From the NCBI RefSeq assembly GCF_000092905.1, contig NC_014098.1, positions 1,612,001-1,676,000 of the forward strand: DNA of 64,000 nucleotides. Reading direction: 5' to 3'. Position 1 is the stretch's first letter. Each line of letters starts with the position of its first letter. Below, one piece after another: positions 5,303 to 54,134 of this stretch. Made by a program: the position numbers and the translations under genes. The notes under the pieces are model-generated. The model was given only the letters and a program-made list of their open reading frames with translations, was not told the origin of the DNA and did not search any database. Source of the DNA: Kyrpidia tusciae DSM 2912 (GTDB lineage: Bacteria; Bacillota; Bacilli; Kyrpidiales; Kyrpidiaceae).

Positions 5303-5338
5303 CAAACGAATGTTCGTGGGGTCGAGCTTTGCTATAAT
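5303..5338 (+). promoter_or_regulatory. recA promoter with LexA (SOS) box
   Basis: A perfect -10 hexamer TATAAT lies at 5333-5338. CAAACGAATGTTCG at 5303-5316 matches the Gram-positive SOS box CGAACrnryGTTyC in 12 of 14 positions and overlaps the expected -35 region (about 5310-5315, which itself is a poor hexamer). LexA bound here would block RNA polymerase, as known for B. subtilis recA. LexA itself is encoded at 49.06-49.67 kb of this window. Confidence 0.8.
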
Positions 5339-49058: not shown

Positions 49059-49667
49059 TCATCGAATCGAACGGTAGAGACCGATCACGAGGCCGAGAAC
49101 TGTCACATTCTTGTAATAGAGTGGGGCCATGGTGGAATTCTCCGGCTGAAGGCGAATGCGATCTTTCTCCTGGTAGAACCGCTTCACCGTGGCTTCTCCT
49201 TCGTCGGTCATCGCCACCACAATGTCACCGTTCTCGGCGGTGGGCTGCTGGCGAACCACCACCAAGTCCCCATCAAATATCCCGGCCTCAATCATGCTGT
49301 CGCCGACCACTCTGAGCAAGAAAACCGGGTCTCCCCCGGTCCAGGACGCAGGGAGGGGAAAATAATCCTCGATGTTTTCCACAGCGGTGATCGGCAACCC
49401 CGCGGTAACCCGGCCCACCACGGGAGCCATGGTGACAGGCCCGACCGTTTGCGCATCCTCCTCCAAAATTTCAATGGCTCTGGGTTTCGTCGGATCCCGG
49501 CGGATGTACCCCATCTGCTCCAGCCGGCCCAAGTGACGGTGGACCGTGGCACTGGAAGACAAGTTCACCGCCTCGCCGATCTCCCGAACGGAAGGAGGAT
49601 AGCCTTTCTCTCTCACTTCTTTCTTGATGAAATCGAGGATATCCTGCTGCCTTCTTGACAATTTCAC
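49059..49667 (-). CDS. lexA: SOS repressor LexA
   Basis: Represses DNA-damage genes until RecA filaments trigger its self-cleavage. I choose the GTG at 49667 because it has AAGAGG 8 nt upstream and gives [14 protein letters not shown], the usual beginning; an ATG two codons earlier is too close to that site. The 202-residue protein has the winged helix ([22 protein letters not shown]), the Ala-Gly cleavage site A89-G90, catalytic S124 (GDSMIEAG) and K162 (ATVKRF). The likely promoter is 450 bp upstream, beyond a decayed tnpB piece. Confidence 0.95.
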
Positions 49668-49749
49668 GAACATCACCTCTTCTCATGGGTGGATCCTGCA
49701 CGGATCTTGCAACCTGGACTCGGAAGCAGCGTTCACCTTTTTGGACATG

Positions 49750-50120
49750 CGCTCGGACGGGTGAACTGGGTTTGGCACGTCGATCTCCGTCTGGAAAGAG
49801 ACGTACCATGCCCGGCCATTTGCGTGGCGTTTCGAATCGTCCCGGCGATGGTCCGGGACTTCACCCACTCGGCCCGGGGCAAGAAGACCTTCGGCCAGAC
49901 ACCCCGCCCGTCCGCATCCCTGGTCGCCAGGTCGAGGTTGATCTGTTTCGGGCGCGGAAAGCGCTGGCCCGCCCCGTCCCGGCTCTTTTTCTTCAATGTC
50001 GGGAAACGCGCCGGGTTAGACAGTCTGAAAGCGGCCTTCAGTGGTTTGTCCAGAAATTCGAGCGTCCATTGCAGGGGATGTACGGATGCACCGGCCCAAA
50101 ATCCGTATTCCTCGCTGTGC
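49750..50120 (-). pseudogene. Decayed tnpB fragment between lexA and its promoter
   Basis: Read on the minus strand from ~50118, one frame gives EEYGFWAG, then HPLQWTLEFLDKPLKAAFR and FPTLKKKSRDG, then VFLPRAEWVK; after a frameshift near 49815 the next frame gives AWYVSFQTEIDVPNPVHPSE. This is the order of blocks in the middle of an IS605-type TnpB (helical part, FPxFKKK, LPKxGWV, WYVSFQxE). No RuvC or zinc-finger part remains. Neither the frames nor a start are usable, so it is a remnant. No recombinase is next to it. The remaining ~80 bp to lexA show no feature. Confidence 0.75.
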
Positions 50121-50124
50121 CTCT

Positions 50125-50164
50125 ATGATACACCCAATCTGCCAAAAAAACAAACGTATATTTG
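50125..50164 (-). promoter_or_regulatory. lexA promoter with LexA box
   Basis: On the minus strand TTGTTT (-35, 50148-50153) and TATCAT (-10, 50125-50130) are 17 bp apart. CAAATATACGTTTG at 50151-50164 matches the SOS box in 11 of 14 positions and overlaps the -35, fitting autoregulation. Transcription would begin near 50118 and cross the tnpB remnant before lexA. Confidence 0.6.
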
Positions 50165-50275
50165 CCGATCTAAAAGGGCCGTTCCTGTCTTCCTCGATCT
50201 GAAAGAGTACCGAGAGTCAGAAAACACCTGCATGCCGCGCTTCATCCTCTTCCCGCAGGCGAGGTTCAAAAACCA

Positions 50276-50304
50276 TTGACACAAACGTTTGTTCCGTGTA
50301 CACT
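50276..50304 (+). promoter_or_regulatory. yneA promoter with LexA box
   Basis: TTGACA (50276-50281) and TACACT (50299-50304) are 17 bp apart. CAAACGTTTGTTCC at 50282-50295 fills the spacer and matches the SOS box in 12 of 14 positions. It drives the LysM gene divergently from lexA. About 170 nt of leader without other features follow. Confidence 0.85.
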
Positions 50305-50474
50305 GGATGCGAACATAAGTTTTGTTCTCGCCCTCGTCTGGGAGGCATACACATGGGGGGACAGGGCTCACTGCATAAAATTGTGTGGGTGTGGGAGAGC
50401 GGGACGAGGAGGGCCCATGGTCAATGGTCCTCCAACACAGGGACACATGGTACAGGGAGAGTGAGGGTGAGGCG

Positions 50475-50882
50475 ATGGGAACACCGCTGAGGGGATTGGC
50501 CGGGGACGAGAGGATGGAGGGGATCAGCCTCCGGGCGAGCCGGGGAAAAGCCCGGAGACAAGCTTGCCTGATCCCGGGTTTTAGCCCGGCCCGGGAAAGC
50601 CTGGCATGGAGCCGGACTGTGCTCGGAATAGGGGTTCTTTTTCTCATGGGGCTGGGGACGGCAGGAGGAGTTTTGTTGCACCACCATCCCCACGCCGAGG
50701 CGGGTGAGGACAGAAGCATCACAGTCCAAGAAGGGGACACCCTGTGGAACATCGCGTCGCGGTATGCGGGCCCCGATGTGGATAGGAGAGAGTGGATCTA
50801 TCAGTTGCGCCAGATGAATCATTTATCAGGAGAAAGTGTCCTTTACCCGGGTATGATTCTTCACTTGCCCTCCGTCCAGTGA
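50475..50882 (+). CDS. yneA: YneA-like SOS cell-division suppressor
   Basis: A 135-residue protein with an N-terminal basic region, one transmembrane helix (~44-62) and a C-terminal LysM peptidoglycan-binding domain (ITVQEGDTLWNIASRY and LYPGMILHLPS). This is the layout of B. subtilis YneA, which is induced by DNA damage and delays septation. The LexA box in its promoter and the divergent lexA gene support the assignment. The ATG at 50475 follows GGGTGAGG; an ATG 39 bp later is an alternative start. Confidence 0.85.
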   Translation: MGTPLRGLAGDERMEGISLRASRGKARRQACLIPGFSPARESLAWSRTVLGIGVLFLMGLGTAGGVLLHHHPHAEAGEDRSITVQEGDTLWNIASRYAGPDVDRREWIYQLRQMNHLSGESVLYPGMILHLPSVQ

Positions 50883-50944
50883 AGGATTTTAGAGGAATGG
50901 GGGAGCGCAAGGTGAGATTTGTGTAGGTTTGGGAGGGTGGAAAA

Positions 50945-51064
50945 ATGAACGCCCGGCATAACGATGAGCGCCAGAACTACAAACTCCGGCGACAGATTCA
51001 ATCCTCGGCCTTGACTCCTGTAAGCTTGAGCGAGTCGACCAACCCACCGGCGGTGGGCAACTGA
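50945..51064 (+). CDS. Possible 39-residue protein
   Basis: ATG at 50945 follows GGGAGGGTGG and opens 39 codons (MNARHNDERQNYKLRRQIQ and a polar tail). Its 3' half overlaps the end of the DsbA-family gene on the other strand. The ribosome-binding site is good, but no family is recognised and composition cannot decide for so short a frame. Confidence 0.3.
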   Translation: MNARHNDERQNYKLRRQIQSSALTPVSLSESTNPPAVGN

Positions 51065-51594
51065 TCGTAGTGATGAACCTCCAACCGACGGTGATCGGCT
51101 TCATAAACCGGGATGGTCCAGATTCGCGCGCCTGCCGCGCGCTGGAAGTCGGCCTCTAACAGCGCGCGATACTTTTCCTGGTCCAGTGTATTCAGATACC
51201 GACTCCCGGATAGACCGGCGGCCTCAGCACACTCTGTCAGTACCCGGCGATCCGACACGTCCAATCCCTTCAAAAACCGGGCATCAAAGACCTGCTGGTG
51301 ATACGCTTCCTCAACACCCTCTTCCCGGGCGTAATACATGCCGGTGAGGGCATCTCGGGTGTCCACTGGCCTCATGAGGCGAATGTCGAGGCCCAGATCT
51401 TCAGAAGCCGCCCGGACATAGCGCTTCACGCCCTCCCGGTAGTCATCGGGTTTGGGCGGGGGAGATGCACCCTCGGGCATGGACCAGGCGACCCATTCGA
51501 TGGATGCGCCGGTCCGTTTTGCGGCCTCCCGCAGGCGATACCGCCCGATATAACAAAACACGCAATTGTAATCGAAATAAGAAGTGATTCGCAT
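50998..51594 (-). CDS. DsbA-family oxidoreductase (FrnE-like)
   Basis: A 198-residue thioredoxin-fold protein starting MRITSYFDYNCVFCYIG, with the active-site CxxC (C11-V-F-C14). The DsbA-type helical insert follows, and the C-terminal part has RIWTIPVYEADHR with the cis-Pro that packs on the active site. There is no signal peptide, so it acts in the cytoplasm like FrnE or 2-hydroxychromene-2-carboxylate isomerase homologues. The ATG at 51594 is chosen by homology to this start; upstream codons lack a ribosome-binding site. Confidence 0.85.
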   Translation of the reverse strand: MRITSYFDYNCVFCYIGRYRLREAAKRTGASIEWVAWSMPEGASPPPKPDDYREGVKRYVRAASEDLGLDIRLMRPVDTRDALTGMYYAREEGVEEAYHQQVFDARFLKGLDVSDRRVLTECAEAAGLSGSRYLNTLDQEKYRALLEADFQRAAGARIWTIPVYEADHRRLEVHHYDQLPTAGGLVDSLKLTGVKAED

Positions 51595-51857
51595 GGTGAA
51601 CACCGCACCCCCGCATCTGGCTACGCCCTCCGTCTGCCTGCCAGAGGGCACTTTCTTCTCGATAGCTTCACTTTACCCGAATTGCGGCCGGGTGGCAAGA
51701 TGGAGCGCAGTTGCCCGATGATAACAATTGGCAATGCTTGTTCTCTGGCTATTGATCCAGCGGGAAAGGTGAGGCTTTTTTGATGGCCCGTTTTGAGTCC
51801 GATAATGTACATTATGTAAACTAAAAAAGCGGGGCAATGCGTTTCAAGGTCTTTCAC

Positions 51858-51985
51858 CCATTCTTTTGCTTCCCCGAAAATACCCGGGCGTAGATCGCCG
51901 TCCGATCCCCGTCCGGTTTTCCTAAAAGCCGCCTCGCCTCCTCGGCATCGAACAGCCTGTGGTTCCCTGGGGCCGGACCGGGCGA
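51858..51985 (-). pseudogene. Remnant of an IS607-type serine recombinase
   Basis: The minus strand encodes PGNHRLFDAEEARRLLGKP and then DGDRTAIYARVFSGKQK, closely matching residues ~38-74 of the intact recombinase at 54.03-54.75 kb (PGNHRLFDVEEVRRLLGKP, YARVSSAKQK). The catalytic serine region is mutated (VFSG) and the frame ends soon after. Fragments on both sides (51800-52110) may belong to the same dead copy. Nothing else is recognised between 51595 and 52115. Confidence 0.8.
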
Positions 51986-52340: not shown

Positions 52341-52640
52341 TCCAAGGGCCGCGTGGTATCAACAGTTGCCGGAATATCTGATCAAAGCTATCCAACAAAC
52401 CGCTGTCGGCCTGACCTTTGTCTCCTTCCATCCGGAAGGGAGCCACCCCCGGGGTGGGCGCGCTTCTCGGCGTGTGCTTCCTCCCGCGTCCGGCAAGCCA
52501 GGATCGGCAAACCGGTCCCCAAGGAATGAAGCTCAGAGCCATCCCGTACCACACGGGCACTCGCGAAAGGCAGAAGCGTGAACCCCTGTCCCGTCCAGGC
52601 GGTTAGCCTCCCGCGAGACCAGAGGGATATTTTGCCCTCA
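52321..52640 (-). ncRNA. Predicted TnpB guide RNA (omega-RNA) region
   Basis: TnpB enzymes use an RNA from the 3' end of tnpB and the right end of the element, with the guide formed by the flanking DNA. Here that would be the ~297 nt from the tnpB stop to 52341, followed by a guide copied from ric (GCGGTTCAAGAGCTTGAGGA). Its target is then the uninterrupted ric allele. The region contains several GC-rich inverted repeats. The extent is inferred from family knowledge. Confidence 0.5.
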
Positions 52641-54134
52641 GGCAACCTCTGGCTTTGGGTCATCCCCTCTCTGGGGATACACGAATGTCTTCGTCCATTT
52701 CCGGTACAGGTTCATCATCCCCACAAAATCTGCATCCGCGCTGTACCGATGGTTCGGGTTCTTGCATGTGAACCGCGAGCCCTGGCGTTCCCCGAGCACC
52801 TTGCAGTGCGGACAGACCTGGGACGTGTAGGCCGGGTTGCGCTCCACCGTCAGAATCCCTTCCCGAAACGCCAGGTCCCGGACCCATTCCATGATCTGTC
52901 CGCGCAACCAGTACGCCCGTTTGTGGTTCTTCCGCCCGCTCCGGCTCATCTTCTCTTTTGGCGGCCGGTACCGACGCAGGTGCTCGAACACGATCACCTT
53001 TGCGCCGTGCTTCTTCGCGAACCGGACAATGGCCAGGGCCGTCTGCTTGGCCGCGTTCTCGTCCAGGTTCCGGATCTTGTTCCACAAGTTCGCGTTGTCT
53101 TGGACCCCCGGCTGGAGCTGTCCGCTTTGCGCCCGCTTGCGGTGAATGACGGTCAACAGCCGGTGCCGGCGATGGTTCAAGGCCCGGCCGTCCACGAACC
53201 TCGTGGCCGCCAGCCGCCCTTCCACGAACGCTCCCATCACCGCCAACCGGTTGGCCCCCAGGTCCACTGTGACCACCGGCATCTGTGGGTTTGCCCGGCG
53301 CTGTTCCTCGGCCTTCCGGGGTTTGTCTACGGATTTCTCCATCGGGATGTGCAGCGCATACCGCACCCCGCCCGGATATCGTTTGTCCCTCTTCCCGTAC
53401 ACCGTCAGGGATTTCGCCACCCATGTCCGGTCCCCTTTTTCTTCGCCGGAACCGGCCTGGGCCGTCTTTGAACGTTTCCTTTCCCAAGCGATTCGTTCTT
53501 TCTCCAGGGCGGACCCGGCGAGAAGCGCTTCGGCCTGGGCGTGAACCACAACCGGTAGCGACACCTTTTCCCACTTCTGCCCGGTGTGCAGTTTCAAGCT
53601 GATGAATGTGTGCCGCTTTTTCTTCCGCGGGGTCAGGTCATACGCGGGGTGCTCGACCATCCCCGCATAAAACGTCACCGGTACGCCCGGCCTGCCCAGT
53701 TGCGGTTCCCGGCCCCGCTTCCCGGGCGGCGCAACCTCCCAGGCTTTCACGGCGCTCGACCAAGATCGGACCTTGCCAATGGCCTGGTTGATTGCCGCCC
53801 GCCGCAACTCCGTCGGCATCCCCTTCGCAGACGGAACGTGTTCGTCGAGCGGCCACCCCGGGTTCGGGTGGGCTTTGGTCGCCAAGGTGTGAAACTCCGC
53901 GAAGGTCAGCAGTTCTTGGTTGGTGCGCCTTCGTTCTTTGATAGACCCGTCCTTCTTCCGAACCTGGACCGGCTCGTCCAACACGTTCAGATGTGCGGCG
54001 AAAAAGTCCATGTAAAACGCAATCACCTGGTTATAGATGTCCTTGGTCCTCTCCAGGGCCTCCCTCTTGCACCGATGGACCTCCCTGTGAATCCCGATCC
54101 GGATCGTCTTGATGACCGTGACCAGTTCCCTCAC
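52638..54134 (-). CDS. tnpB: TnpB RNA-guided nuclease of the IS607-like element
   Basis: A 498-residue TnpB (Cas12 ancestor). The split RuvC active site is D291 (VTVDLGANR), E384 (VIVFEHL) and D467/D469 (YSADADF). A zinc finger lies between the last two: C441 and C444 (CPHC), C457, and H462 as a probable fourth ligand. The N-terminal ~280 residues are the helical and wedge part. All catalytic residues are kept. The GTG at 54134 overlaps tnpA by 104 bp and has GGGAGG directly before it, so the true start could be slightly downstream. Confidence 0.9.
   Translation of the reverse strand: MRELVTVIKTIRIGIHREVHRCKREALERTKDIYNQVIAFYMDFFAAHLNVLDEPVQVRKKDGSIKERRRTNQELLTFAEFHTLATKAHPNPGWPLDEHVPSAKGMPTELRRAAINQAIGKVRSWSSAVKAWEVAPPGKRGREPQLGRPGVPVTFYAGMVEHPAYDLTPRKKKRHTFISLKLHTGQKWEKVSLPVVVHAQAEALLAGSALEKERIAWERKRSKTAQAGSGEEKGDRTWVAKSLTVYGKRDKRYPGGVRYALHIPMEKSVDKPRKAEEQRRANPQMPVVTVDLGANRLAVMGAFVEGRLAATRFVDGRALNHRRHRLLTVIHRKRAQSGQLQPGVQDNANLWNKIRNLDENAAKQTALAIVRFAKKHGAKVIVFEHLRRYRPPKEKMSRSGRKNHKRAYWLRGQIMEWVRDLAFREGILTVERNPAYTSQVCPHCKVLGERQGSRFTCKNPNHRYSADADFVGMMNLYRKWTKTFVYPQRGDDPKPEVA

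Follow-up and report, generated by a model that had tools for sequence, protein, structure and literature searches.

A LexA-boxed transposon promoter probably took the place of the native lexA promoter in two Kyrpidia genomes

LexA autoregulation sets the strength and the shut-off of the SOS response. Integron integrases and phages are mobile elements under LexA control, and insertion-sequence promoters are known to drive neighbouring host genes. According to the text available for PMC13393415, LexA binding has been demonstrated for ISCR1, 2 and 8 and direct regulation for ISCR1 and ISCR8, and ISCR1 has outward promoters. ISDra2 is described in the accessible part of PMC2806898 as inserting 3' of a specific pentanucleotide; irradiation stimulates its transposition, for which TnpA is required and TnpB is dispensable. 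Our literature search, which covered few subscription papers, gave among the matches listed neither a LexA-controlled tnpB nor a transposon-derived lexA promoter.

The window, i.e. the whole stretch of DNA that was analysed, is 64 kb of the Kyrpidia tusciae DSM 2912 chromosome (3,384,766 bp; G000:C1:1612001-1676000). We compared it with a sister Kyrpidia (G001, a single contig of 3,352,175 bp), a third Kyrpidia (G002) and a member of another genus in the same family (G003). The window genome and the sister G001, both from heat-loving bacteria, have an insertion at lexA and are called carriers below. In our preferred reading, to which we give a probability of about three in four, a tnpB-only transposon with a LexA-boxed tnpB promoter inserted upstream of lexA in the ancestor of the carriers, and its promoter and box would have replaced the native ones. 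The features of the locus are the following.

49059 to 49676, minus strand: lexA coding sequence, 205 residues (Pfam Peptidase_S24 and LexA_DNA_bind), with a GTG start codon at 49676.
49677 to 49748, minus strand: lexA-proximal leader with the ribosome-binding site (by eye), 90% identical to G001 and without a match in G002.
49749 to about 50123 (about 375 bp), minus strand: tnpB remnant, residues about 63-193, with a frame change and one internal stop (DNA and protein similarity).
50125 to 50130, minus strand: -10 TATCAT of the predicted transposon tnpB promoter, at present the sole lexA promoter that can be recognised (scan; alignment with other copies).
50148 to 50153, minus strand: -35 TTGTTT of the same promoter (promoter scan).
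50151 to 50164, no strand assigned: predicted LexA box, CAAATATACGTTTG on the lexA strand, assigned to the transposon (matrix score 17.0; same place in other copies).
50165 to 50270, minus strand: transposon left-end remnant with one hairpin arm at about 50227-50254 (alignment to other left ends).
50276 to 50304, plus strand: promoter TTGACA-17-TACACT of the LysM gene, judged native (promoter scan; LexA matrix).
50385 to 50882, plus strand: open reading frame of a LysM protein, the divergent neighbour (Pfam LysM), which by its position we take to be yneA, the name used in the earlier note.

The spacer between the two genes contains a decayed tnpB. On the minus strand, 49677-50164 is 79% identical at the DNA level to an intact tnpB at another site of the genome (E 1.9e-88). 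At the protein level, TnpB residues 63-173 match 49808-50125 with one TAG, and residues 171-193 match 49749-49817 in another frame, in good agreement with the roughly 370 bp of TnpB blocks in two frames that the earlier note had described between lexA and yneA. Three minus-strand open reading frames over the remnant match no Pfam family at E<=1. The Pfam domains of the intact TnpB copies cover residues 2-46, 177-292 and 319-387, and by these boundaries the remnant appears to fall mostly between them. For this reason the Pfam null is misleading here, and a profile search, which the earlier note had proposed as the check on tnpB similarity, is a poor guide at this locus; the direct similarity is decisive. 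The window copy is a remnant and not an intact or mobile element, as the 5' and 3' parts of tnpB are missing and no right end can be recognised. The 5' part of tnpB is kept in G001 and deleted in the window copy directly after the -10. No terminator-like site was found within 49600-50450, the leader included, and the Rfam search for structured RNAs gave zero matches across the 64-kb window.

Promoters were scanned at a loose threshold (8 of 12 matches, spacer of 16-18) and a strict one (9 of 12). At the loose threshold the leader holds, on the lexA strand, a single sigma-A-like site, TTGTTT-17-TATCAT. Its -10 ends 448 nt upstream of lexA, and in G001, where the site is again the only one, 518 nt upstream. 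The -35 is weak (3/6), and at the strict threshold no promoter is found on the lexA strand of the leader. The LexA box at 50151-50164 overlaps this -35. The earlier note had placed the only LexA-boxed lexA promoter on the far side of the tnpB piece and expected a leader of about 450 nt of transposon origin; both agree with the single site found and with a predicted leader of about 440 nt that runs across the tnpB remnant. A new start site within the tnpB piece had also been suggested, of which the promoter scan gives no indication.

To score the box we used a LexA matrix derived from 27 lexA loci outside Kyrpidia (L004-L030), 26 of which contributed a total of 62 upstream boxes. Across the 64-kb window the four highest-scoring 14-mers are a box at 5303 (19.3), next to a gene that we recognised by eye as presumably recA, a box of the LysM gene (18.5), the 50151 box (17.0) and the second box of the LysM gene (15.9). 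The LysM-gene boxes lie at 50282-50295 and 50310-50323. The palindrome at 50151 differs from CGAACNNNNGTTYG at two positions, which could be taken as a chance resemblance to a LexA box. However, it ranks third in the window, and it fits the matrix from related genomes better than chance would allow: in 120 bp of order-1 simulated sequence, scores of 15 or more have a probability of about 0.0009. It is also kept in copies that differ in the four central bases. We consider a chance resemblance very improbable, the least probable of the explanations weighed here.

The usual arrangement upstream of lexA is different. A LexA match was found in 40 of the 41 genomes searched, and 30 lexA loci from these 40 genomes were examined, 26 of which had contributed to the matrix. 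The nearest LexA box is 57-120 nt from lexA in 28 of the 30 loci, while in the carriers it is at -488 (window genome) and -558 (G001), in both cases within the transposon, so that the autoregulation usual for the class, with a box within about 120 nt, is not seen there. Neither G002 nor G003 has an insertion at lexA, and in their native promoters the -10 TACAAT ends 74 and 70 nt upstream of the gene. TACAAT was not found in the lexA spacer of either carrier, and by this comparison the native promoter seen in G002 and G003 is absent from both.

These results bear on an alternative explanation, that lexA is transcribed from an unrecognised promoter close to the gene and that the transposon piece is inert debris. 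The roughly 75 nt adjoining lexA, which among the three Kyrpidia genomes are present only in the carriers, are 90% conserved between the two, and the transposon -35 is weak enough for the site to be missed at the strict threshold. Both points would fit a promoter near the gene. But even at the loose threshold neither leader holds any other sigma-A-like site, and there is no LexA box near lexA, unlike at the 28 other loci. We therefore regard this explanation as unlikely, though it is the strongest of the alternatives.

The origin of the promoter and of the box can be followed by similarity. In BLAST searches, the stretch 50123-50265 matches a decayed tnpB-only copy in G001 (L088) with 95% identity over 44 nt (E 1e-13), three copies with both tnpA and tnpB with 79-81% identity over 63 nt (E 2e-10 to 9e-9) and a further decayed copy, L101 (E 1e-7). 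Against the intact tnpB-only left ends the similarity is weak (E 1.2 for L033 and L042, with L036 not among the matches), and the G002 and G003 spacers, which hold the native lexA promoter, give no match at E<=10. The lexA spacers of both carriers align with the boxed tnpB-only copies from the hairpin arm through the -10, and their stretch from hairpin to box aligns with the left end of the tnpA-containing form as well. Because 50123-50265 matches left ends of the element and not the native spacers, a transposon origin of the lexA promoter and its LexA box is well supported on sequence grounds. The left end stops just short of the -35 of the LysM-gene promoter, and by eye its outer edge reads TTGAA, which resembles the TTGAT target of the element. 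The earlier note had held that the tnpB piece separates lexA from its SOS promoter. The piece does lie between them, but the promoter and the LexA box are themselves transposon sequence too.

Two forms of the element exist among its relatives. Intact close tnpB copies, with 96-100% protein identity to the copy in the window genome, number one in G000 and six in G001.

Form A, with the tnpA side upstream of tnpB and no LexA box: L034, L038, L040 and L044, all in G001 (the tnpA side of L034 is rearranged).
Form B, tnpB only, with a LexA box, intact: L033 (G000), L036 and L042 (G001).
Decayed boxed tnpB-only copies: L088 (G001:558569), L101 (G001:1939973) and L096 (G002:C29).

Both forms have a common hairpin left end after TTGAT. 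The tnpA of L038 is a Y1 (HUH) transposase (Pfam Y1_Tnp, E 2.1e-46), and the TnpB proteins of L033 and L036 match OrfB_IS605 (E 7.1e-31 and 1.7e-31) and the TNB domain (E 3e-20 and 2.1e-20). Compared with the empty site in G001, L033 is 1424 bp inserted 3' of TTGAT with no duplication (TTGAT/C...TCAA/C in G000), so this tnpB-only copy is a clean insertion. The search in G000 with the flanks of L042 gave an 80-nt match only and hence no empty site. The left-end hairpin arms are complementary in L033, L036 and L042, although the L036 sequence differs from the other two. L083 and L088 have one version in each arm, and there the arms match incompletely.

The LexA box follows the form of the element. 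It lies at -46 from the tnpB ATG in L033, L036 and L042, in L101 and in L054, the copy at the lexA locus of G001. All seven of the other tnpB-only copies with the tnpB promoter score 15.3-18.5, L088 and L096 included. Among the 19 loci that have a tnpA-side promoter no score exceeds 4.1; as four loci from the class scan appear to repeat earlier ones, the distinct loci number probably about 15. L076, which is a left-end remnant in G002, lacks a LexA box (score -1.5). Remnants of tnpB without the 5' end, e.g. L035 and L062, were left out of the box scoring. The boxes of the tnpB-only copies are probably related by descent and best counted as one event that was kept. The window copy would belong, with L088 and L101, to another sub-line, in which the box is as in intact form B and more of the form-A left end is present.

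At an orthologous place both carriers have a decayed copy whose tnpA side is shortened (L078, G000:292219, and L086, G001:611033; 954 of 1000 positions identical, flanks included). In it a GTTTG is kept as far from tnpB as the right half-site of the LexA box, which may point to the origin of the box. Candidate sources of the box halves are the 3' codons of tnpA or the tnpB promoter; the alignments are gappy.

Outside the genus no LexA box was found on the element. The scan of genome contigs gave 11 loci outside Kyrpidia, and the nine that hold the tnpB start (not L071 and L073) were scored, all without a box. With the boxed left end as query, and at most two candidates scored per genome, 4 of 398 genomes of the class matched, namely the three Kyrpidia and G357, which matches only the 36-nt hairpin stretch. 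The TnpB protein gave matches in 5 of 398 genomes, and four of the five loci outside the genus were scored (L140 is cut off), again without a LexA box. The plasmid search returned 1707 records, all below 60% identity, and no relative of the element was found in the viral contigs.

In the verrucomicrobium Methylacidiphilum sp. Yel, three loci (L063, L070 and L071) encode the TnpB of the same element with 87-89% identity, an apparent transfer between phyla judging by this similarity. L063 and L070 have the tnpA-side promoter.

Other tnpB families served as a control. Eighteen loci in the two carrier genomes and the 498-aa tnpB of the window have no LexA box (best score 4.1), as scored with an older 54-box matrix, in which one box was miscopied and some were left out, and with starts estimated by frame. 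The 498-aa TnpB (52638-54134, minus strand) is intact and belongs to another subfamily (Pfam TNB domain), of which G000 apparently holds about ten similar copies, this one included. A repeated 14-mer, CGAATCGATGTTCG, was rejected, as at L103, the one locus inspected, it lies by eye inside a transposase-like gene. At L121 (G000:2697659) a LexA-box match, CGAACAAATGTTTG, is located near the 5' end of what by eye is a radical-SAM-like gene, possibly a further SOS gene.

It could also be that the direction was the opposite, i.e. that the element landed beside lexA, captured the host promoter there and then carried it elsewhere. The layout of the transposon promoter, with the box over the -35 and a 17-nt spacer, is also that of the native promoters in G002 and G003, and in the genome contigs and class scans boxed copies were found only in Kyrpidia. 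However, the box is inside the element, between the left end in common with the tnpA and tnpB form and the start of tnpB, and G002 has a boxed copy elsewhere (L096) with no insertion at lexA, which makes promoter capture improbable, less likely than the inert-debris explanation; the window left end and promoter have no match to the native spacers of G002 and G003 either.

The insertion most likely predates the split of the two carriers, since the outer edges of the inserted region are common to both and the internal tnpB deletions are different. Between the carriers the promoter-box block is identical at 42 of 43 positions and the adjoining left end at 76 of 93 (one-sided Fisher p 0.007). This contrast fits selection on the promoter, but it is confounded by a possible recombination boundary, as the carriers are about 97% identical on the lexA side but only 59-91% over 50200-51800. 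In the comparison of window positions 50200-51900 with G001 (L133), no alignment of the carriers extends beyond about 51865 within the compared stretch. A recombination or transfer boundary beside the insertion is likely. The window promoter region is also 95% identical to L088, a copy that drives no lexA gene, which counts against the selection reading.

According to the preferred reading, an IS200/IS605-type tnpB-only element with a boxed tnpB promoter would have landed, in the common ancestor, in the spacer that separates lexA from the LysM gene (yneA), with the left end toward yneA and tnpB pointing into lexA. Later the element would have lost its right end and the 3' part of tnpB, and lexA its native promoter; further tnpB deletions, different in each carrier, would have followed. 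RNA polymerase would start near 50118, as estimated from the -10, and the transcript would cross about 440 nt of dead tnpB before reaching the lexA ribosome-binding site. When bound to 50151-50164, LexA would keep the -35 covered until DNA damage triggers LexA cleavage, in the manner of native operators, so LexA would repress its own gene via a donated operator. Autoregulation through such a transposon-donated operator is most likely the present state in the carriers. We infer from sequence the order of these events, the binding of LexA, transcription from the transposon promoter and SOS induction of the intact tnpB copies. A wider proposal, which we favour by a narrow margin, is that the mobile tnpB-only element carries a LexA-repressed, damage-induced gene for an RNA-guided nuclease, whose operator arose in connection with the loss of tnpA, and that in two species a single copy has for good supplanted the promoter and operator of lexA, so that the SOS feedback runs through it.

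If this is true, the operator of the master repressor has been swapped for that of a transposon, i.e. a core feedback loop was rewired with its logic kept. The tnpB-only element also raises the idea that DNA damage may switch on the RNA-guided nuclease gene of a transposon.

Compared with the IS200/IS605 family of the ISDra2 type, the Kyrpidia element has the same Y1 tnpA in its full form, the tnpB and the hairpin left end, and L033 likewise went in 3' of its pentanucleotide without duplication. Unlike ISDra2, the tnpB-only form has a LexA box on the tnpB promoter. A predicted LexA box over the promoter of a mobile element is what the Kyrpidia element has in common with the LexA-controlled ISCR transposase genes; however, the controlled gene is the transposase in ISCR and tnpB in Kyrpidia, where the promoter of one copy would now be that of lexA. 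As with other insertion-sequence promoters acting on host genes, a transposon promoter is predicted to transcribe the adjacent gene. The difference is in the target, which here is lexA, so that the donated promoter would bring along an operator for the gene's own product.
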